DNA of 64,000 bases. It comes from Acidihalobacter aeolianus (lineage in GTDB: Bacteria > Pseudomonadota > Gammaproteobacteria > DSM-5130 > Acidihalobacteraceae). This document shows, one piece after another, positions 4,294 through 50,240 of the stretch. The notes beneath the pieces are model-generated. The model worked only from the letters and a program-made list of their open reading frames with translations, made no database searches and was not told the DNA's origin. The DNA is taken from assembly GCF_001753165.1 (NCBI RefSeq), contig NZ_CP017448.1, forward strand, positions 886,462-950,461, read 5' to 3'. Within the stretch, counting starts at the first letter, position 1; each line of letters opens with the position of its first letter. A program made the position numbers and the translations under genes.

Positions 4294-5748
4294 TTATTCC
4301 ATGTTCGAGATTTTGAGTTCTTGCTCGTAGATGGTTTTCAGCCCATGCAATCGGCTACGGGTGCTTGCATTGGTGTTTGGCGCGCGTAAGGCTATTTCGA
4401 TCTGCTTTAGTGCGGAATTCAGTTCGCCTTGCTTGGCGTAATATCTCGCCAGAGCTTCGTGGCTACCGGCGTCATCGCCTGCCGTCGCCGCAGACTTGGC
4501 GAGCAGGTGGAGCATGTCTGCCGATAATCCGGACTGAATGGCTTGGTTTTGTAGCAATGTCTGGGCTTGGTTTGCCTGCCCGGCTGCCAGAAGACTCTGT
4601 GCCAGGGTTGCGACTATCAGAGGTTGCCCCGGATGCAGTTCGTTGAGAGTACGTAGTAGCGTCACAGCTGCGGCATTATGTCGCGCGGCAGTCCATGCCT
4701 CTGCGAGGCTGATGCTGAGCATGATTGATTTTGGATGAGCGCGATGCAGTTCGGCCAGGTGCAGCGCCGCCTTATTAGCATGCCCGGCTCGCAGGAGTGC
4801 GAGTGCCAGCGCGTACTGTTGGGCCGGCGATTCCTTCCCTGTGTGCGGACCCTCGAGAAGTTCGTCGGGTGGCGTGGTCAAGGCAACGATGCGGGCCTTG
4901 AATAGGCGGAAGCGCCGGCTGTCCCGAGAGAGCCTGCCGGCCCCCGAGATTTGGTTACTGCGATTGCGTGCTTCCGAAATCCTGTGTGAGGTGGCGGGAT
5001 GCGTAAGCAGTAATGCGGGTATGCCGCTCTCACTTTGGTGGCTGTCACGGGCGAGCGTAGCGAAGAAATCGACCATGGCATTGGGGTCCAGATGCGAACG
5101 TGTCAGCATCCTAATGCCTACCTCATCTGCTTCTAGCTCGTGACTGCGTGAGAAATTCAATTGCTGCTGCGCGGCGCCAGCCATAGTCGAGGCGAGCGCT
5201 GCTTGTCCGAGCGTGGGGTCATGGAGGCCTACCAGTACGGCACCTAGGGCAGCCAAAAGGGTGGGGCCGCTCAGGCGTGCGTGCTCGGCCACTGTGCGTG
5301 CGAAGTGCCTTTGTGTGATATGCGCGATCTCGTGCGCCATAACCGCAGCCAGTTCGGCTTCGTTGCTGGCTGCTTTAATGAGTCCCGTATAGATCACTAT
5401 GATGCCGGCTGGCGCAGCGAATGCGTTGATTTCAGGCGAGTCGACGATCAAGAAGCGGAAACGGAAACGGACATTAGGGGCATTGGAAGTGAGTCGGTCG
5501 CCCAAGCTGTTGAGATAAGCGTTCGCGATGGGATCGCTAAGCACGGGCATCTGCTGGCGTATTTCGTGCAATGCGCGTTGTCCAAGACGGCGTTCCTGCT
5601 CAATGCTCAGGGCATTGCTGGCGGTTTCGCCGAGCGAAGGAAGTGCTTCCTGGGTGAGTGGAGGTGATTCTGCCGCGAAGGGAGCGTTTGGACTCGGGAC
5701 TAGAGCCAGGGCGAGCAGGGCGAGCGCTGAGGCGCGTATGGTGCCCAT
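4294..5748 (-). CDS. bepA: M48 family metalloprotease with TPR repeats (BepA/YfgC-like)
   Basis: 484 aa from the ATG at 5748, where a signal peptide begins (MGTIRASALALLALAL). The zinc protease motif HEIAH is at 139-143 and the third-ligand region HELEADE near 203-209. The C-terminal 200 residues are tetratricopeptide helices, with several A/L-rich repeats. In E. coli BepA does quality control of LptD and outer-membrane assembly in the periplasm. Length and domain order match BepA. The in-frame extension upstream to 5877 is basic and Pro-rich and was rejected. Confidence 0.87.
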   Translation of the reverse strand: MGTIRASALALLALALVPSPNAPFAAESPPLTQEALPSLGETASNALSIEQERRLGQRALHEIRQQMPVLSDPIANAYLNSLGDRLTSNAPNVRFRFRFLIVDSPEINAFAAPAGIIVIYTGLIKAASNEAELAAVMAHEIAHITQRHFARTVAEHARLSGPTLLAALGAVLVGLHDPTLGQAALASTMAGAAQQQLNFSRSHELEADEVGIRMLTRSHLDPNAMVDFFATLARDSHQSESGIPALLLTHPATSHRISEARNRSNQISGAGRLSRDSRRFRLFKARIVALTTPPDELLEGPHTGKESPAQQYALALALLRAGHANKAALHLAELHRAHPKSIMLSISLAEAWTAARHNAAAVTLLRTLNELHPGQPLIVATLAQSLLAAGQANQAQTLLQNQAIQSGLSADMLHLLAKSAATAGDDAGSHEALARYYAKQGELNSALKQIEIALRAPNTNASTRSRLHGLKTIYEQELKISNME

Positions 5749-5806
5749 TGGTTTTCTTTCCGGAGCGCCCGGGTAGTCCTGGCGCTCCGGTGCAGGGTGG
5801 GATGCT

Positions 5807-6112
5807 TTACTTGCCGACGCGCGGGCTGGAGCCGTACGCCTGCATGGAGGTGCGTCCCTGCCAGGTTTTTGCGGCAAGCAGGATCTCGGGCACGAAGAAT
5901 CGCGCTTTGGGGTCCACTTCGGTGGACTTTACGATCTTGGTTACGTCGCCATAGGCGATCTTGTGCAGTGTGCCTGACTTGTCCGTGAAGCGGGCGACCA
6001 TAAAGTCGTCATGGAGCTTGTATACATAGATATTGGCTGGGCGTACCTTGCCCTTCTCGTCCTTAAGGGCTATGGCGTAGCGGGTGTTTTCGCGGAAGCT
6101 GCTCTTGTCCAC
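5807..6112 (-). CDS. conserved hypothetical protein
   Basis: 101 aa, not recognised. No signal peptide or membrane segment. The N-terminal two thirds look like a small beta-rich domain (RYAIALKDEKGKVRPANIYVY; FMVARFTDKSGTL), ending in a basic tail. It begins 59 bp upstream of the BepA-like gene on the same strand and may be its cotranscribed leader. Composition matches the neighbours, so coding is likely. Function unknown. Confidence 0.6.
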   Translation of the reverse strand: MDKSSFRENTRYAIALKDEKGKVRPANIYVYKLHDDFMVARFTDKSGTLHKIAYGDVTKIVKSTEVDPKARFFVPEILLAAKTWQGRTSMQAYGSSPRVGK

Positions 6113-6237
6113 TGCCTAGACTCCTGCAAAGTTGGGATAGTTGAGCCTGGCGGCGCAGCGTATCGTTGCCGCGCCCACCAAAGTAAACTAGAGTAACACC
6201 AGATTCTAATAAGCGACAATCCTACGAGTCCAAGGGC

Positions 6238-6267
6238 TTGACCTGAATTCGGTCTGCTAAGCAGAAT
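6238..6267 (+). promoter_or_regulatory. possible sigma-70 promoter for the rhodanese gene
   Basis: TTGACC at 6238-6243 and CAGAAT at 6262-6267 are separated by 18 bp, in an AT-rich gap about 25-45 bp upstream of the rhodanese start. Judged by eye against the sigma-70 consensus only. Confidence 0.35.
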
Positions 6268-6287
6268 GTGTTAATATTCTTAATTCC

Positions 6288-6653
6288 ATGCCGATGGAGC
6301 GAGGCGGTATGTACGGATTTCAAGAGGTTGATGCCGGTACCTTGCAACAGTGGATGGCAAACGGTGAGTCGTTGTGCCTAGTGGACGTGCGGACTCCTGC
6401 TGAGATGTCACGTGGTGTGATTGAAGGTGCGAAGCTGATTCCGTTACACCTGCTGCCCGTCAAACTTGATGAGCTCATGGTGTCGGAGCGCCCTAGGGTC
6501 GTGTTTTATTGCCAAAGCGGAGCCCGCTCCGCTCAGGCGTGTGCTTTCGTGGCGCAGCGCCAGGGGGGCGAGGTGTACAATCTGCGTGCTGGCGTAATGG
6601 GCTGGGTTTCGGCTGGTAATCGATTGGCGTCGCCGGAGTTGGTGTCAGGTTGA
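6288..6653 (+). CDS. single-domain rhodanese (sulfurtransferase)
   Basis: 121 aa. The active-site loop CQSGARS (Cys near residue 75) and the CH2A-like motif LVDVRTPAEMSRG identify a rhodanese, which moves sulfane sulfur through a cysteine persulfide in the cytoplasm. The ATG at 6309 (MYGFQEV) is an equally plausible start. It lies immediately before the hdr operon on the same strand; in known sHdr clusters a rhodanese feeds sulfur to TusA and DsrE carriers. Here no tusA accompanies it. Confidence 0.85.
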   Translation: MPMERGGMYGFQEVDAGTLQQWMANGESLCLVDVRTPAEMSRGVIEGAKLIPLHLLPVKLDELMVSERPRVVFYCQSGARSAQACAFVAQRQGGEVYNLRAGVMGWVSAGNRLASPELVSG

Positions 6654-6764: not shown

Positions 6765-6782
6765 TATAATCCGTAAGTGAGG
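6765..6782 (+). promoter_or_regulatory. -10 element and ribosome site ahead of hdrC1
   Basis: A perfect TATAAT at 6765-6770 lies 20 bp before the hdrC1 ATG, and GAGG at 6779-6782 is the ribosome site. A -35 box at the expected distance is poor (TCATGT), so an activator may be involved. If used, the leader would be only about a dozen bases. Confidence 0.4.
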
Positions 6783-6789
6783 TGCTTGT

Positions 6790-7476
6790 ATGGCGACATA
6801 CGCTGAAATGCAGCAAATCTACGATGATATTCGTGGGGATTTTCGGTACGACAACGAGCTCAATGGGTGTCTCAACTGCGGTATATGCACCGCGACCTGC
6901 CCTGCGGCACACTTCTACGACTACAGCCCTCGTGAGATTGTCCAGTTGCTGTGGACCGAGAACGTCGAGCAGATCTACGATGCCATGCAGGAAAAAATCT
7001 GGGCCTGTGCGCAGTGCATGACGTGTGCCGCCAGATGCCCCTTTAAGAATTCCCCGGGTGGCCTAGTCGCAATCATGCGTGAGGTCGCCATCAAGCACGA
7101 GATGCAGTCCGCCAAGGACGTTTTGCGCCCATTCGGTCGTGTGATGCTCAAGCTCATCACCACGGGCAATCAGCTCTCTCCCGATATGATCCAGCCTGAC
7201 CATTTCCCTGACTGGGGCCCAAATATCCAGAAAGTGGAAGGTGATCTGACTGTTCTGCGTAAGGCGATTCCCGTCAAGACTCTGCAGACAGTGGAAACAG
7301 CTTGGGAAGTCTCCCTCAAGACCTCGGTAGAGATGTACACCATCTGGGAAATGACCGGAGTGCTCAAATCCCTCGAGCTGATGGACGAGAATCTCTTCGA
7401 CGTCATCGACGACTTCATTGATGAGAAGCGCGAAGAGTACGACGAGTGGCTCGAAGAGCAAGAAGACGACGATTGA
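6790..7476 (+). CDS. hdrC1: sHdr complex subunit HdrC1 (iron-sulfur protein)
   Basis: 228 aa. Two four-cysteine motifs, CLNCGICTATCP near residue 27 and CAQCMTCAARCP near residue 73, bind two [4Fe-4S] clusters. The C-terminus is strongly acidic. It is homologous to the HdrC subunit of heterodisulfide reductase, and the order C1-B1-A-hyp-C2-B2 is that of the sulfur-oxidising sHdr complex, which is proposed to oxidise carrier-bound sulfane sulfur to sulfite in the cytoplasm. It is the first gene of the operon proper. Confidence 0.92.
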   Translation: MATYAEMQQIYDDIRGDFRYDNELNGCLNCGICTATCPAAHFYDYSPREIVQLLWTENVEQIYDAMQEKIWACAQCMTCAARCPFKNSPGGLVAIMREVAIKHEMQSAKDVLRPFGRVMLKLITTGNQLSPDMIQPDHFPDWGPNIQKVEGDLTVLRKAIPVKTLQTVETAWEVSLKTSVEMYTIWEMTGVLKSLELMDENLFDVIDDFIDEKREEYDEWLEEQEDDD

Positions 7477-7545
7477 ACCACGTCCGCTCTGCCTGTGCAT
7501 GGCGCGCGGGTGAGAGGTGAAGACCTTATTTTAAGGAGTGTCGTT

Positions 7546-8895
7546 ATGAAACCTACTGATCAGAATGGCAGCCCTGACTCCGGTATCGCCGGCCACGGCT
7601 CTTTCTTCCAGGAAACCAATCTGTCCCGCGAGGAAGCCGTGCGCGCCACGGATTGGGTACGCAAGCACGTCGATCGTCGCACGGTCGATCTCGGCGAGCG
7701 GATGGATGACGTCCGCGAACATATGTATGAGCTCGAGAAGGAAGGCGAGATCATCATCCATCGCATCGGCGACGAGCACGATCCCAAGATTGTGAAGACG
7801 CTGTTTGGGTGGGAGAAGAAGGTGCCCACCAAGCAGTTGTGGCATCACAAATCCTGCGGTCAATGCGGCAACATTCCCGGTTATCCGACTTCGTTGATGT
7901 GGTTTATGAACGAGTTCGGCTACGTGCCCGGCAAGGATTACCTGGACGAGACCGATCAGACCTCATGCACGGCCTGGAACTATCACGGTTCCGGCATCGG
8001 CAATGTTGAGTCACTGGCGGCCGTATTCCTGCGCAACTTCCATCAGGCGTATGTGTCCGGCAAGCAGCACGGCTTCGAGCTGGGTCACTTCTTCCCGCTC
8101 GTCCACTGCGGGACATCTTTCGGCAACTACAAGGAGATCCGCAAGTATCTGGTCGAGTCTGCAGAGCTGCGCGAGAAGGTGACCAAGATCCTCGGCAAGT
8201 TGGGGCGTCTGGTCGACGGCAAGCTGGTGATCCCCGAAGAGATCGTGCACTACTCCGAGTGGGTACATGTGATGCGTAACCGCATTGCGTCCGAGCTTCA
8301 GAAGATCGACGTTTCCAACATCCGCGCGACCGCCCACGTCGCTTGCCACTATTACAAGATGGTGCACGAGGACGCGGTGTACGATCCCGAGGTGCTCGGT
8401 GGCAACCGTACCGCGATCATCACTTCCGTGGCGCAGGCGCTTGGCGCGCAGGTTATCGATTATTCGACCTGGTACGACTGTTGCGGCTTCGGTTTCAGGC
8501 ACATCATTTCCGAGCGCGAGTTTACCCGTTCGTTCACCATGGACCGCAAGATTCGCGTGGCTCGCGAAGAGGCCAACGCCGACGTGATGCTGGCGAACGA
8601 TACCGGTTGCGTGACCACCATGGACAAGAACCAGTGGATCGGCAAGGCGCACGATCAGAACTTTTCGATCCCGATCGTGGCGGACGTCCAGTTCGCGGCT
8701 TTGGCCTGCGGTGCAGACCCGTTCAAGATCGTGCAGCTGCAGTGGCACGCGTCCCCTTGCGAAGACCTGGTGGAGAAGATGGGGATCTCCTGGTCGGATG
8801 CGAAGAAGAATTTCCAGGAATATCTCAAGGAAGTCGAGCAGGGCAACATCGAATATCTCTATAACCCCGAGTTGGCATACGGAGGACAGGCATAA
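7546..8895 (+). CDS. hdrB1: sHdr complex subunit HdrB1 (CCG-domain protein)
   Basis: 449 aa from the ATG at 7546, preceded by AAGGAG; the upstream extension to 7495 lacks a site. It carries CCG-type cysteine motifs: KSCGQCGN near residue 105, HVACHYY near residue 265, and DCCGFGFRH near residue 308, the pattern that holds the non-cubane clusters of HdrB. It is longer than HdrB2, as in known sHdr operons. The stop overlaps the hdrA start in TAATG, indicating translational coupling. Confidence 0.9.
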   Translation: MKPTDQNGSPDSGIAGHGSFFQETNLSREEAVRATDWVRKHVDRRTVDLGERMDDVREHMYELEKEGEIIIHRIGDEHDPKIVKTLFGWEKKVPTKQLWHHKSCGQCGNIPGYPTSLMWFMNEFGYVPGKDYLDETDQTSCTAWNYHGSGIGNVESLAAVFLRNFHQAYVSGKQHGFELGHFFPLVHCGTSFGNYKEIRKYLVESAELREKVTKILGKLGRLVDGKLVIPEEIVHYSEWVHVMRNRIASELQKIDVSNIRATAHVACHYYKMVHEDAVYDPEVLGGNRTAIITSVAQALGAQVIDYSTWYDCCGFGFRHIISEREFTRSFTMDRKIRVAREEANADVMLANDTGCVTTMDKNQWIGKAHDQNFSIPIVADVQFAALACGADPFKIVQLQWHASPCEDLVEKMGISWSDAKKNFQEYLKEVEQGNIEYLYNPELAYGGQA

Positions 8896-40732: not shown

Positions 40733-41203
40733 AGCCATCGATGGGCTGGGCGTCTCACCCGGGCTGGACTTTCACACCATATATGTGCAGGGATGACAAG
40801 CAACGATATTCATCACGGTGAAAGACGTTCGACTTTGCCAGAAGACCTCGTGTTTCTCGGCACGCTACTGTTCGCGCTTGTTGTACTGCGCAACAGCGGG
40901 AGCCGTAAAAGGATTCTGTAGGGCTGAAATCGGCCACATCCGGTCGTTTATGCTCATTCCATATCAACCCGTTGGACGGCAGGATTACAGCGGGAACCAG
41001 TCGTTAGCCTTACTCTGATGGGCGTCAGCGTGGTGTCCCCGTTTCCACACATGCATGTATAGACAGAGAGGTAACGTAATGCATCGAAATCAAAGGGTTA
41101 TAGTCGATTCCCTCGCGTCTCTATATTAAAGAATGTCCGGACCCGTCGGTCTCTATATTTACTGTTATTCGCAAAAGGATGAGAACCCGTGGCTAAAGTT
41201 TAT
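40733..41203. other. gene-free stretch before the insertion sequence
   Basis: About 470 bp of mixed composition, turning AT-rich near the insertion sequence. No convincing gene was seen; a 70-codon minus frame (40755-40967) has no ribosome site. An 11-bp direct repeat GTCTCTATATT occurs at 41117 and 41149. It is probably remnant accessory DNA. Confidence 0.5.
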
Positions 41204-42695
41204 CCTGAATCCGTAACTTAGCAGGCCATTATGATGTGATAAATACCGTAATTTATAGGCTATATTGCTAAAATAGATGCTCTCGAAAAGGTCACTCAGT
41301 CAGTGAAAAAATGAAGCGCTTAAAAATTGAACAATCAGATGCAGATATCATCAGCCACAGTGGCCTGGCACTGATCGGTCAGGCCATAAAACGCCACACG
41401 AAGCTGAGTAGCCAGCTGGATGCAAGCATCCCGTTACGCCATGGCATCAAGCATTCTGATGTCATCAAGAGCTACCTGGCATTACTGAGTATCGGAAAAA
41501 GCGATTTTGAGGCCATCAATACCATTGAGAGTGAATTCTATTTCATGAGCGCGATGGATATCAATGACATCCCTTGCGAAGCGACACTGCGCCAACGCAT
41601 GGATAAACATGCGGAACACTTTTTGCCCATCGTCGAGAGAGCCAGCCGGGATTTTCTGAGCAATATCCAACCTACGCTACGGCCCTTGCCCACCGGACAT
41701 ATTCCGATCGATGCCGATGTGACCCCGATGGATAATTCGGGCAGCCACAAAGAAGGCGTATCGAGAACCTATAAGGGACATGACGGGTTTGCCCCCATGG
41801 CGGTATACCTCGGCCAGGAAGGCTATTGTATCGGCTTTGACTTTCGTGAAGGCAAGCAGCATTGCCAGAAAGACACACCGGCCTTGCTGGCAAAGACCTT
41901 GCGACAGGCCCGGGAAATCACAACGCAGCCCCTTTTGCTCAGGCTCGATGGTGGCAACGATTCCATCGAGAACATCGACGTCATCCTCGAGCACAGCGAA
42001 GACCATAAAACCCAGTCCCCTGTTGATTTCCTCATCAAATGGAATCCCCGCAAACAGGATAAAGCCTATTGGCTTGGGCTTGCGGAACAAAAAGGACGAT
42101 GGGAAGAGCCACGGGAAGGCAAGCGGATAGCCACTTTCAGTCTGCAGGTTTCGCGGCAATGGCAAGGTGATGAGTATTCGGTACGGCAGGTCATTCGTCT
42201 CACTGAAAGAACCCTTGATAAACAGGGGCAGATATTGCTGGTTCCCGAGATTGATCTTGAAGGATGGTGGACAAGCCTGGACATCAGTGAAGGCGATATC
42301 ATTCAGCTTTATGCGGATCATGGTACATCGGAACAGTTCCACAGCGAATTTAAAACTGACATGGATATCGAACGCTTGCCCTCCGGGAAATTCGCCACCA
42401 ATGCGTTGGTATTGGGAGCCAGTGTGCTGGCCTACAATATCCTGCGCTGGATTGGGCAAAACGGCTTGTTGGGTCCAACGTCTCCGAAACGCAACAAAGC
42501 GAAAAGGCGACGGATCAAGACAGTGATGCAAGAGCTGATGTATGTTGCCGCACGCATCATCCGAACATCGCGCTACATCAAGATAGGCTTTGGCAAAGGT
42601 TGCCGTGCACTTCAGGCCTTTGAAACGGTGTATCAGAAACTGGCCTACGGATAAAGAAAGGCCGATAAGCGTGGCCAAACGGGCGTAGTTACAGG
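41204..42695 (+). mobile_element. IS1380-family insertion sequence (ends approximate)
   Basis: The transposase gene is flanked by imperfect inverted ends: CCTGAATCCGTAACTTAGC from 41204 and, read inward on the minus strand from 42695, CCTGTAACTACGCCCG. Alignment needs a 6-base gap, and no matching 4-bp target duplication is seen (TTAT against ATCA). Boundaries are therefore tentative. GC is lower than in the nif genes around it. Confidence 0.6.
41311..42654 (+). CDS. IS1380-family transposase
   Basis: 447 aa, the family length. DDE-type segments are visible: IDADVTPMDNSG near 133, LLRLDGGNDS near 210, and YADHGTSEQFHSEFKTD with ERLPSGKFATN near 345-365, the most characteristic IS1380 stretch. 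The frame is intact, so the element may be active or recent. Confidence 0.92.
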   Translation: MKRLKIEQSDADIISHSGLALIGQAIKRHTKLSSQLDASIPLRHGIKHSDVIKSYLALLSIGKSDFEAINTIESEFYFMSAMDINDIPCEATLRQRMDKHAEHFLPIVERASRDFLSNIQPTLRPLPTGHIPIDADVTPMDNSGSHKEGVSRTYKGHDGFAPMAVYLGQEGYCIGFDFREGKQHCQKDTPALLAKTLRQAREITTQPLLLRLDGGNDSIENIDVILEHSEDHKTQSPVDFLIKWNPRKQDKAYWLGLAEQKGRWEEPREGKRIATFSLQVSRQWQGDEYSVRQVIRLTERTLDKQGQILLVPEIDLEGWWTSLDISEGDIIQLYADHGTSEQFHSEFKTDMDIERLPSGKFATNALVLGASVLAYNILRWIGQNGLLGPTSPKRNKAKRRRIKTVMQELMYVAARIIRTSRYIKIGFGKGCRALQAFETVYQKLAYG

Positions 42696-42892
42696 ATCAG
42701 TGTGCGCAGAATACGTTGAATCGACATCATTTCCGTCTGCCAACAATAATGATGTCAGTTTTTATTCAAAAAACACAACCGTTGCAGCTTATTCATGTGG
42801 CGATACGAAATGTTAACGAACCATGTTGAAGGCTGCATGCGAAAATACGGATTCAGGTTTATGTCATAAACAATGATGGAAGCACAGAGGCA

Positions 42893-43987
42893 ATGTCAGG
42901 AATCCACTGCAAGAACGAAGACCTGGAGCTTCAGCGAATATTGGAGAGTAATCCTGACCTAATACCTGGCGATCAGATAAATCCATCAGATCCACGACGA
43001 TGGTTAGTTGTTAAACGTGAAATGCCGGTTCCTGATCCAAGTACAGGCGATAATAGATGGAGCATTGATTTATTTTTTGTGGATCAAGATGCTATGCCAA
43101 CTTTTATTGAATGTAAAAGATATAACGATACTCGTGCTAAAAGGGAAGTTGTAGGTCAAATGCTCGAATATGCGGCAAATGGTCATTACTACTGGTCTAA
43201 GGATGAGATGCGTACGTATGCCGAGCAAGCTGCTGAGAAAAATGGTATATCCTTGGAGGAAGAAATCAAACGCCTGCAGCCTGATGAGCCTGAATCTGTT
43301 GATGGGTTCTTTCAGCATGTTCAGGATAACTTGAGAGGGGGTCAAGTTCGTTTGGTTTTCTTCATGGAGGAATCCCCTCCGGAACTAAAAAGTGTAGTAG
43401 ATTTTCTTAATAAGCAAATGGAGCGGTCAGAGGTGCTTCTGGTAGAGGCTCGTCAATATGAACATAAAGGAACCAAAATAGTAACTCCCATCTTGTTTGG
43501 CTTTACTGAAGAAGCACGGCAGGTCAAGAAGACTGTGTCTGTAACTACAGGACAAAGAAGGAAATGGGACAAAGAATCTTTCTTTAACGATGCAAGGGAG
43601 CGCTTGATAGAAAAAGAAGTTTCAGCCATCAAGCAACTTTTTGACAAATCACAAGAACTAAAATGTGAGCTTTCGTGGGGCACAGGGAAAATCAGCGGAT
43701 CTTTCTCCGCTAAATGGCCGCACTTAGGTACATACTCAGTTTATTCGGTATTTTCGGATGGCTCAATCGCGATCAATTATGGTAGTTTCAAAAACACGCC
43801 TGAGCAAAAAGAATTTATCGCGGTGCTAAAAAATGAATTAGTAAGTCATGTGGGCTTTTCTGCGCCTGATGACTATGAAAGGCGTTACCCAAATTACAAA
43901 ATAAACGAATGGTCAGAAAAGGTTGATGGTTTACTCACGGTGTTAGATATAATAAATGAAAAGTTCCCTGCGCCAGAAAGCGTATAA
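42893..43987 (+). CDS. PD-(D/E)xK nuclease-like protein in an integron-type cassette
   Basis: 364 aa, not assigned to a named family. Residues 59-89 have the restriction-endonuclease-like pattern: D59 in SIDLFFVD, E73 and K75 in FIECKRY, Q89 in GQMLEYA. The rest is mixed alpha/beta. The gene is AT-rich against its GC-rich surroundings, and its TAA lies inside the attC site at 43983-44068, as in integron cassettes. It may act in defence against foreign DNA; that is inferred from the fold only. A ribosome site is not obvious. Confidence 0.7.
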   Translation: MSGIHCKNEDLELQRILESNPDLIPGDQINPSDPRRWLVVKREMPVPDPSTGDNRWSIDLFFVDQDAMPTFIECKRYNDTRAKREVVGQMLEYAANGHYYWSKDEMRTYAEQAAEKNGISLEEEIKRLQPDEPESVDGFFQHVQDNLRGGQVRLVFFMEESPPELKSVVDFLNKQMERSEVLLVEARQYEHKGTKIVTPILFGFTEEARQVKKTVSVTTGQRRKWDKESFFNDARERLIEKEVSAIKQLFDKSQELKCELSWGTGKISGSFSAKWPHLGTYSVYSVFSDGSIAINYGSFKNTPEQKEFIAVLKNELVSHVGFSAPDDYERRYPNYKINEWSEKVDGLLTVLDIINEKFPAPESV

Positions 43988-44068
43988 CAATCACATGCAC
44001 TCGGACAGCAAAAAGCGCCGCTCCTTTGTCGCTCTACTTTTTACTGCCGGTGATGTGCGGCGTTAGCT
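43983..44068 (+). repeat. attC site of the first cassette
   Basis: 86 bp of imperfect inverted repeat: ATAACAATCACATGCACTCG on the left pairs with CGGTGATGTGCGGCGTTAGC on the right, and CAGCAAAAAG pairs with CTTTTTACTG inside. The right core is GTTAGCT, one base off GTTRRRY. This is how integron attC sites are built. Confidence 0.75.
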
Positions 44069-44085
44069 GCTCAAGGAGATAGTCC

Positions 44086-44649
44086 ATGGGACTTCATGTA
44101 CACAATCTTGGGAATCTACCGAACACAGACGATGGAAGGGACTATTTCATCTACGTTCTCGATTATGGCTGGAAGGAACCATTAACGGATGCGCTCGTGG
44201 CAAACTTCACCAATATGGCCCGAATGGCATCACAAACAAGATCGGTAGTAGTGGCCGGAATCGAACCCATCCATTTTGCAAATGACGTTTTTTCATGGCA
44301 CGGAATAAACGGTGAAGATGGTGAGCGCATTTTGCCCGCCATCCTAATTACAACACTCACGCCTTCGTATTTCAGAGAACACAACGAAGAGCATCAAAGG
44401 TCTGGTGAAATTAATGACAAGCTATTGTTGATCCCGCTTAAGGCTGCGTGTAAAACAACAGACGATGTGATCCAATTGATAAAGTCCATTTTCAACGACA
44501 TTAAGGAAAAGAAGAAGCTATCTGGTTTTTCTATTGCCAAGACAATTAACAAAAATGGTTTGCGTCGGCTTGCAGACGCAGTAATTCTTGAGCCGAATAT
44601 TTCGGGGGTGGGCATTGATCTTCGCAAGTTATTCCAGCCAGGCAGCTAA
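44086..44649 (+). CDS. cassette-encoded protein of unknown function
   Basis: 187 aa, not recognised. AT-rich, no signal peptide. YFIYVLDYGWKEPLTDALVANF and RSVVVAGIEPIHFANDVFSWHGI suggest an alpha/beta fold; ILPAILITTLTPSYF follows. AAGGAG stands 8 bp before the ATG. The gene fills a complete cassette, starting 17 bp after one attC site and ending with its TAA inside the next. Function unknown. Confidence 0.65.
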   Translation: MGLHVHNLGNLPNTDDGRDYFIYVLDYGWKEPLTDALVANFTNMARMASQTRSVVVAGIEPIHFANDVFSWHGINGEDGERILPAILITTLTPSYFREHNEEHQRSGEINDKLLLIPLKAACKTTDDVIQLIKSIFNDIKEKKKLSGFSIAKTINKNGLRRLADAVILEPNISGVGIDLRKLFQPGS

Positions 44650-44715
44650 CCAGCCCATCAAGCCGACGCTCACTTCGCTGCGCTTCGTTCGCGCGGCTTA
44701 TGGGCGGCGTTGAAC
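44644..44715 (+). repeat. attC site of the second cassette
   Basis: 72 bp: CTAACCAGCCCATCAAGCCG pairs imperfectly with CGGCTTATGGGCGGCGTTGA, with an inner CGCTCACTTCGCTGCGCTTCG segment. The right core GTTGAAC fits GTTRRRY exactly. Confidence 0.85.
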
Positions 44716-44841
44716 GTGAACGACCGCTGTTGGCTCTGGAGCTGACAGCGTGTCACGTACAAGCGACTGGCAGCTGGGGTCGTTTTCTGCCTGAGTAGCA
44801 CGGCATTTCAGGTTCTGTTTTCAGAAACGTTCTAGCTTAAT
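44716..44841. other. possible cassette remnant after the second attC
   Basis: The 126 bp up to the SulP gene hold AACGACC at 44718 and GGTCGTT about 60 bp on, a weak inverted pair around GCTG/CAGC blocks. It may be the remains of a further non-coding cassette. No gene seen. Confidence 0.3.
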
Positions 44842-47348: not shown

Positions 47349-47364
47349 TGGCATGACGGTTGCA
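47349..47364 (+). promoter_or_regulatory. sigma-54 promoter of nifENX
   Basis: TGGCAT-N5-TTGCA with 10 nt between GG and GC. Transcription would start near 47375, about 40 bp before nifE. The rest of the 326-bp gap 47088-47413 holds only the NifA site. Confidence 0.88.
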
Positions 47365-47413
47365 ACATGGCCCGTGTGTCGCTCTCTGCGGCGTCTTTCA
47401 GGGGACTGCCAAG

Positions 47414-48823
47414 ATGATGAAGCCGGAAGAACTCAAGGCCATGCTCGACGAGCCGGCCTGCAGCCACAACAAGAAGTCGAAGTCGGGGTGCTCCAAGCCC
47501 AAGCCGGGTGCCACCGCCGGCGGCTGCGCCTTCGACGGCGCGCAGATCGCGCTGCTGCCGATCGCCGACGTGGCACATATCGTCCACGGTCCCATCGCCT
47601 GCGCCGGCAATTCGTGGGACAACCGCGGCACGCGTTCCTCCGGGCCGACGCTCTACCGCCTGGGCATGACCACCGACCTGACCGAACAGGACGTGATCAT
47701 GGGGCGCGGCGAGAAGCGGCTGTTCCATTCGATCAAGCAGGCGGTGGAGTCATACGATCCTGCTGCCGTGTTCGTGTACAACACCTGCGTCCCGGCGGTC
47801 GCCGGCGATGATGTCGGCGCGATCTGCAAGGATGCCGCCGCGCGCTGGGGCGTGCCGGTGGTACCGGTCGACGCGGCCGGGTTCTACGGCACCAAGAACA
47901 TGGGCAATCGCCTGGCCGGCGATGCGATCTGCAAGCACGTCATCGGCACGCGCGAGCCCGATCCGGTGCCCGAGTCGCTACAGCGGCCGGGTATCCGTGT
48001 GCACGACATCAATCTGGTCGGCGAATACAACATCGCCGGCGAGTTCTGGCACGTGGCGCCGCTGCTCGACGAGCTGGGTCTGCGCATCCTCGGTTCCCTG
48101 TCCGGCGACTCGCGCTTCCGCGATATCCAGACCATGCATCGCGCCGAGGTGACCATGGTGGTGTGCTCGAAGGCGCTGCTCAACGTCGCGCGCTATCTCG
48201 AGGAGCAGCATTCGGTGCCGTGGTTCGAGGGCAGCTGGTACGGCGTGGACGATACCTCGAAGGCACTGCGCGATTTCGCGCGGGTGATCGGCGACGAGGA
48301 TCTGATCGCGCGCACCGAGGCCGTGATCGCACGCGAGGAGGCGAAGACCGTCGCGGCGCTCGACCCCTGGCGCGAACACCTCGACGGCAAGCGTGTGCTG
48401 CTCTATACCGGCGGCGTGAAATCCTGGTCCGTGGTCTCTGCGCTCAAGGATCTGGGCATGGACGTGGTCGCCACCGGCACCAACAAGTCCACGGAAGAGG
48501 ACAAGGAACGCATCCGCGAGATCATGGGCGAGAAGACCAAGATGATCGAGGACGGCAGCCCGGCCAACCTGATCGGCATCGTGCGCGAATACGGCGCCGA
48601 CATCCTCATCGCCGGCGGACGCAACATGTACACGGCGCTCAAGGCCCGCGTGCCGTTTCTCGACATCAACCAGGAGCGCGAGTTCGCCTACGCGGGATAC
48701 GACGGCATGGTGGAACTGGCCCGTCAGCTCGCGCTGACCATCGAATCCCCGGTGTGGGAGTCCGTGCGCCGCGCCGCGCCGTGGCATCCGGCCGAGCCGC
48801 TCGCGGAGGCGGTCAATGGCTGA
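47414..48823 (+). CDS. nifE: FeMo-cofactor scaffold protein NifE
   Basis: 469 aa from the ATG at 47414. Cysteine-rich N-terminus ([20 protein letters not shown]), [19 protein letters not shown] and [17 protein letters not shown] match NifE, a NifD relative. With NifN it forms the scaffold on which the NifB product becomes FeMo-cofactor. It overlaps nifN by 8 bp. Confidence 0.97.
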
Positions 48824-50240
48824 GATCATCAAGCGCAAGAAGGCGATGTCGGTCAGCCCGCTGAAATCCAGCCAGCCGATCGGCGCCAGCCTCGCATTTC
48901 TCGGGATCAACCAAGCGATGCCGCTGATGCACGGCTCGCAGGGCTGCACGGCCTTCGCCAAGGTGTTCTTCGTGCGCCACTTCCGCGAGCCGATTCCGCT
49001 GCAGACCACGGCGATGGATCAGGTCAGCACCGTGCTCGGTGCCGACGAGAGCATCGTCGAGGCGCTCGACACGATCTGCAAGAAAAGCGCCCCCGCGATG
49101 ATCGGGCTGTGCACCACCGGCCTTTCGGAAACCCAGGGTGCCGACATCCGGCGCATGGTCAAGGTGTTCCGCGAGCGCCATCCGGAGCACGCCGGAACGG
49201 CGGTGGTCGCGGTGCCCACGCCGGATTTCACCGGCTGCATGGAGTCCGGATATGCGGCCGCCGTGCACGCGATGATAGAGCAGCTGGTGCCGGACGTGCA
49301 CGAGGTGGGGCCGGAGCGCGGCGAAGGGGCGACCCAGGTCAACGTGCTGCCCGGCTCGCTGCTCACGCCGGGCGACGTCGAGACTCTCAAGCTGCTGATC
49401 GAATCCTTCGGCCTGCAGCCGGTGATGATTCCGGATCTGTCCGGTTCGCTCGACGGCCACCTGGGCGACTCTCCGTTCAGCGCGGTCACCACCGGCGGGC
49501 TCGACGTGTCCGCCTTCCGCGGGTTGAGCCGCGCGGCGGCGACGATCGTCGTGGGCGGCTCCATGAACAAGGCCGCCGACCTGCTGCGCGAGCGCACCGG
49601 GGTGCAGGATTTCCGCTTCGAGACCCTGATGGGGCTGGAGCCGGTCGATCGTCTGGTGGCCAAGCTGGCGCAAATCTCCGGACGCTCTGTGCCGGACATC
49701 CTGGAGCGTCAGCGCCGCCAGCTGCAGGACGCGATGCTCGATACCCACTTCATGCTGGGTCTGCGTCGCATCGCGATTGCCGCCGATCCCGACCATCTGC
49801 TGGCGCTGACTGCGCTGCTCAACGGCATGGGCGCCGAGGTCGTGGCGGCCGTCGCACCGATGCGCACGCAGCGGCTGACGGAGGCCCAGTCGCCGGCAGT
49901 GGTACAGATCGGCGATCTGGAGGATCTGGAGCGCATGGCGCGCGAAGCGGGCGCCGAGGTGCTGGTCGGCAACTCGCATCTGGCCGAGTCCGCTCTTCGT
50001 CTGAACCTGCCGCTGCTGCGCGCCGGGTTCCCTCAATACGACCATCTGGGCGGCTACCAGCGCACCTGGATCGGCTATCAGGGCACCCGGCAGATTCTGT
50101 TCGATCTGGCGAACCTGCTGCTGGCCGAGCACGGCCACCACGAGATTCGCCCTTACCGGTCCATCTACGCCCAGCCGGGCGACGCGGAGATCGCGCATGG
50201 TGCTGCAACGCCGACTCAGACTTGTACACCCGTCCACTGA
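48816..50240 (+). CDS. nifN: FeMo-cofactor scaffold protein NifN
   Basis: 474 aa. A NifK relative: [21 protein letters not shown] near 36 and [15 protein letters not shown] near 100. Forms the NifEN tetramer. Starts inside the nifE end and is followed at 13 bp by nifX. Confidence 0.97.

Follow-up and report, generated by a model that had tools for sequence, protein, structure and literature searches.

The nif region of Acidihalobacter aeolianus carries two genes that sequence comparison has confirmed as genuine integron gene cassettes, and the array that they form is a CALIN by definition, with two attC sites less than 0.7 kb apart in a genome from which complete intI is absent. This integrase-less pair probably occupies one of several dispersed attI-like docking units of the family, into which an integron integrase, now lost, would have placed cassettes in trans. 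The array goes further than a plain CALIN in belonging to a set of family-specific units, which have a common head and a common tail and whose contents are replaced between species.

Two integron cassettes in a nif region

The window, that is, the whole 64-kb stretch of DNA that was analysed, contains a first attC site (attC1; 43982-44068, + strand, 87 bp) with the R'' core GTATAAC and the R' core GTTAGCT (44062-44068), and a second (attC2; 44644-44715, + strand, 72 bp) with the cores AGCTAAC and GTTGAAC (44709-44715). A sequence-only reading of the window had placed two genes and two inverted repeats with these right cores at just these positions, each gene ending within its repeat, which proved correct, the TAA of gene 1 (43985-43987) and that of gene 2 (44647-44649) both lying in R''. 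Because Rfam holds no matching model (a search of the region gave no match), a covariance model (R1) was purpose-built from 46 attC sites of arrays adjoining complete intI genes elsewhere in the class, a few of them from main integrons of the same genus and none from the window. The arms of this training set (n = 46) align gap-free, the 17 pairs expected are present in 76% of cells, and the covariation of these pairs is 0.360 vs 0.150 when shuffled. Both sites were matched at full length on the + strand, attC1 with 25.9 bits (E value 6.3e-4) and attC2 with 28.2 bits (1.7e-4), while a second covariance model (R2), also run on the window, gave 29.8 and 44.0 bits, respectively; no further attC was found in the 64-kb window by R1 at E<=5. 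With these full-length matches to R1 and R2, the R'', L'', L' and R' arms, the G|TT crossover and a strand facing the gene are present at both sites, and the attC sites that the earlier reading had proposed are confirmed. In addition, attC1 is ~80% identical to two attC sites of an array in a same-genus genome (L138 in G263), and GC content is 40-49% over the cassettes vs about 57-70% in flanking DNA outside the insertion sequence (IS) described below. Single-strand folding was set aside as evidence for attC, being too weak alone: the bottom strand folds slightly better than the top (-17.0 v -14.2 and -18.0 v -16.8 kcal/mol), with unremarkable energies (z -0.6 to -2.0).

Cassette 1 (41165-44062, + strand), bounded by the GTT of a left element described below and the GTT of attC1, consists of a gene for a nuclease-like protein and attC1, and is split by an IS1380-family element. 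The latter had been read as a neighbour of an array starting at 42893; in fact the array starts at 41164 and the IS lies inside cassette 1 (41204-42857, + strand), with a transposase gene (41311-42654; NCBIfam transpos_IS1380, 338.8 bits), terminal repeats and the target-site duplication TTTAT (41199-41203 / 42858-42862). The IS severed the first five codons of the gene (GTG GCT AAA GTT TAT; 41189-41203, + strand). Read across both IS flanks, the frame gives VAKVYVINNDGSTEAMSG, in register and resembling the N-termini of cassette-1 homologues; the cut thus falls after codon 5 of the gene, of which the 364-aa open reading frame (ORF) at 42893-43987 (+ strand) is the remainder. Its product matches the PADLOC defence candidate PDC-S11 weakly (E 4.5e-9) and belongs to a recurrent plasmid-borne family (plasmid homologues with 33-42% identity), one member of which adjoins brxL. 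No attC was found near the relatives of this protein on plasmids and in two genomes (G247 and G163), and neither cassette protein has a match in Pfam, NCBIfam or PDB.

Cassette 2 (44063-44709, + strand) is a single ORF of 187 aa (44086-44649, + strand) followed by attC2 and bounded by crossover points, and it recurs in another context, which is what defines an integron gene cassette. Proteins 93, 83 and 67% identical to its product occur in three further families of the class, and in the genome that encodes the 93% one (G170) a blastn match spans 44064-44711, from GTT to GTT. The G170 copy is a solitary cassette and has an attC of its own (36.6 bits with R1); the core at its left end is not a clean GTT. 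Searches of PADLOC and of plasmids gave no match to the protein, and a structure predicted from the single sequence (mean pLDDT 41) was set aside.

As for the surroundings, the nifE/nifN neighbourhood that had been assigned to the array is borne out by profile searches, which found nifE (47360-48823, 691 bits) and nifN (48816-50240, 619 bits) downstream. Between these genes and the cassettes lies a gene for a SulP transporter, and an LRV Fe-S protein is encoded upstream.

A common head and a common tail

The array is headed by a left element (LE) of ~230 bp (40936-41167, + strand), which ends in TTTACTGTTA with a GTT crossover triplet at 41164-41166. In an alignment of LE from six loci, conservation reaches as far as GTTA(G), the point at which a cassette would join. 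The LE in the window contains two direct copies of GTCTCTATATT (at 41117 and 41149), 32 bp apart, and the stretch between them is lost in 2 of the 6 aligned copies. Three genomes together contain 11 near-full-length copies, and for eight of these copies the attC model supports a site on the same strand no more than 4.1 kb away. Judged from its attI position, its repeats and its GTT end, LE is a putative attI-like recombination site, which is only loosely similar to the attI found beside argH in the genus. No sigma-70 promoter was found in LE by consensus. LE and an attC are also seen on the 162-kb plasmid C2 of the window's own genome, hereafter G000 (L136, 6646-7251), so a unit of the LE kind exists on a plasmid as well. 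The LE end motif gave 19 matches in a set of 84,980 species genomes (from which G000 and its very near relatives may be absent), all of them the bare motif alone in unrelated, mostly AT-rich genomes, which were read as chance.

Directly after the last attC sits a right element (RE) of ~73 bp (44718-44789, + strand; GAACGACCGCTGTTGG...GGGTCG; 79.1 bits with its model R3), and the same sequence stands at other array ends. R3 finds 14 copies of at least 38 bits in four genomes of the family (G000, the same-genus G263 and G274, and the same-family G275), and outside the family, in a sample of 274 genomes of the class, only two weak matches (<26 bits) in two genomes. Most copies start right after the GTT or ATT of an attC; the attC model backs this neighbouring site at six of them, the arms at the others being eroded as judged by eye, and about half of the RE copies retain nothing but such remnants, unscored by the model. 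Compared with other RE copies, the window has GAACGT inserted or doubled between attC2 and RE (44709-44723).

LE and RE recur in the same order at seven loci in three genomes (three in G000, three in G263 and one in G274), and in the class sample they surround other arrays in this family only. No target-site duplication was found in any of the seven units. The outer ends of LE and RE form weak inverted repeats in three units (at or beyond the 2% tail of shuffles; consensus p 0.026), and three units show no inverted similarity above shuffles. A cassette-free LE-RE unit was not found; since all three same-genus genomes have a gltX locus that is either occupied or remodelled, neither an empty site nor a target duplication can be read there. 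Two units (L137 at 6157 and L202 at 7950) share 30-50 bp past the LE and RE ends used here, although their wider flanks do not correspond, so the true unit, whose outer ends are uncertain, may be longer.

An integrase lost here and kept in sister genomes

The sequence-only reading saw a CALIN layout without intI, which holds for the whole genome: with the profile TIGR02249 (cut-off 265 bits) no complete intI was found in G000, where the best matches are partial, reach at most 87 bits and none spans the profile, and Xer proteins in control genomes give similar partial matches. Complete intI genes lie beside argH in both G263 and G274 (474 and 473 bits). The argH of G000 is 98% identical to that of G263, and behind it there is no intI and no array. 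The sole IntI-type trace in G000 is a 55-aa ORF (L004, 1474-1641; C1:530690), a C-terminal integrase remnant that is 71% identical to the IntI of the genus over 35 aa. Because the integrase is now absent, current activity in G000 is excluded. Next to ispF in G274 (L079, 5752-6057) lies the fossil C-terminal part of a second integron integrase, which shares 63% identity with the argH IntI and was possibly the former partner of LE. The literature searched contains no description of integrons in Acidihalobacter.

Orthologous loci with exchanged contents

Four loci are common to species, with flanks that are 87-98% identical and contents that have no blastn similarity except for one 75-bp match. 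(i) At nif/SulP, G263 shares the flanks (90-93%) and RE with G000 but carries different genes and different IS elements. (ii) Between apbC-dcd and amt (flanks 93-98%), G000 has three small cassettes of unknown genes and G263 has one Shedu SduA gene (382 bits; L196, 1478-2647), the sole cassette of its unit. (iii) At gltX (flanks 87-97%) the contents differ, the unit in G000 holding ordinary-looking genes without attC. (iv) An attI-headed array at 2.98 Mb (flanks 87-95%) is orthologous in three species and differs in contents. The genes found in units elsewhere include a Shedu defence gene, and also an HNH nuclease. Nor does the gene-repeat-gene block of the window turn up as a normal operon in relatives that lack the repeats, for the G263 locus holds different genes and the cassette-2 homologue in G170 has its own attC.

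Five integrase-less arrays in G000, G263 and G274 start with a copy of the argH attI, so both LE sites and remote attI sites carry cassettes in this genus. L084, L138, L139 and L208 are headed in this way; L084, L138 and L208 are orthologous with different cassettes, and L138 has ~11 attC sites. At two loci a group II intron reverse transcriptase gene adjoins attC (L137, G000:C1:500000-515000, at 6769-8124; L084 at 5498-6361), and from this position we suspect that the introns belong to the IIC-attC class. Because 922 bp are 99.6% identical between the two loci, recent movement of the intron between attC sites is suggested.

How the array may have arisen

In the docking unit that we favour, LE would come first, as the attI-like site, followed by exchangeable cassettes each ending in attC, and then by RE. 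An integrase made elsewhere (either the one that sister species keep beside argH and G000 has lost, or a relative of that enzyme, likewise lost) would act in trans, recombining the folded bottom strand of the attC of circular cassettes at the GTT of LE. Cassettes would be added and removed in this way, leaving orthologous units of different species with different, sometimes defence-type, genes. In G000 the array would now be frozen, with intI gone and the first gene cut by IS1380 after codon 5. We infer the role of LE as a recombination site, the action of IntI in trans and any expression or function of the cassette genes. Capture by an integrase in trans, which had been proposed from the window alone, gains in likelihood from the intI genes of two sister genomes and is still put forward as an inference. 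Contents could instead have been replaced by homologous recombination in the flanks. A broader idea, to which we lean slightly less than to its opposite, is that a single integron integrase supplies several dedicated and conserved docking sites of an attI-like kind (LE...RE units together with remote copies of attI) on chromosome and plasmid. This would amount to a distributed integron, with cassettes traded in trans at many loci instead of in a single array next to intI.

Several other accounts deserve consideration. That an integrase inserted cassettes at arbitrary attG-type sites (GTT-like triplets), LE and RE being incidental neighbours, would make this a plain CALIN, an account for which there are published attC x attG insertions outside integrons (Loot et al. 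2024, as cited in PMC11023631) and, closer to home, the cassette 2 of G170, which stands alone with neither LE nor RE. We think it improbable, because arbitrary sites would not share both flanks, whereas LE and RE flank arrays at seven loci and are missing elsewhere in the class sample. Much the same low likelihood attaches to LE...RE being a non-autonomous, MITE-like transposon (compare integron mobilization units), which picked up cassettes and was spread by a transposase in trans. Its many dispersed copies, the left element on a plasmid and the weakly inverted outer ends of three of the seven units would fit such an element; however, target-site duplications were found in none of the units, three units show no inverted similarity beyond that of shuffles, a cassette-free copy was not seen among them, and units at orthologous places in two or three species give no sign of recent jumping.

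Scattering of one large ancestral integron by rearrangement, with the arrays as its relic fragments, would agree with the loss of intI in G000, with the 35-aa IntI/Xer-like remnant at C1:530690 and with the frequent intI inactivation that PMC12444791 describes for other genera. It is very unlikely all the same, for one array would leave at most one head and one tail, whereas each of the seven loci has a separate LE and RE, always in the same order, and contents differ at orthologous loci. As for ordinary genes followed by terminator-like inverted repeats rather than attC, only the folding energies, unremarkable when taken alone, speak for them, and to this account we give practically no credence, as it is already refuted by the attC model matches, the GTT boundaries and the recurrence of the cassettes. 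The attI-like docking unit with exchangeable cassettes is the reading that we retain as probable.

Significance and comparison with known systems

In the usual picture, an integron is one platform in which the integrase lies beside attI and the array, and integrase-less arrays are taken for relics or for products of chance insertion. Should LE/RE units and remote copies of attI be dedicated landing pads, (i) some CALINs would be working parts of a multi-site system, (ii) standard searches would miss the heads and tails of such arrays and (iii) cassette exchange, including that of defence genes such as Shedu, would be possible at many loci and under different neighbour genes. Among known arrangements, integron mobilization units (MITE-flanked defective integrons) consist of a defective integron between two repeated sequences; LE...RE differs in having no target duplications, weak inverted repeats and no evidence of recent movement.

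The array resembles the CALINs defined with IntegronFinder (Cury et al. 2016) in its two tandem attC sites, its ORF-attC layout and the lack of intI nearby, and departs from them in being bounded by recurring family-specific LE and RE, with contents replaced at orthologous sites. A parallel is found in Xanthomonas, for which PMC12444791 reports, in the sections used here, CALINs at conserved non-ilvD loci and loss of intI in some lineages. There too, integrase-less arrays sit at conserved places in the chromosome, apart from the intI locus; however, these sections locate the arrays by their neighbour genes and say nothing of an attI-like element common to their heads or tails. Cassettes outside integrons also result from insertion at attG sites (Loot et al. 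2024, Nat Microbiol 9:228, as cited in PMC11023631 and discussed in PMC12444791), but attG sites are, in these secondary accounts, dispersed and loosely specific, whereas the same left and right sequences recur in Acidihalobacter. Finally, the Delta-attI-type cassettes of PMC12901181 are alike in that attI-derived sites stand in unusual places; as outlined in the portion of that paper cited here, attI fragments replace attC within mobile-integron arrays, whereas LE heads whole arrays.
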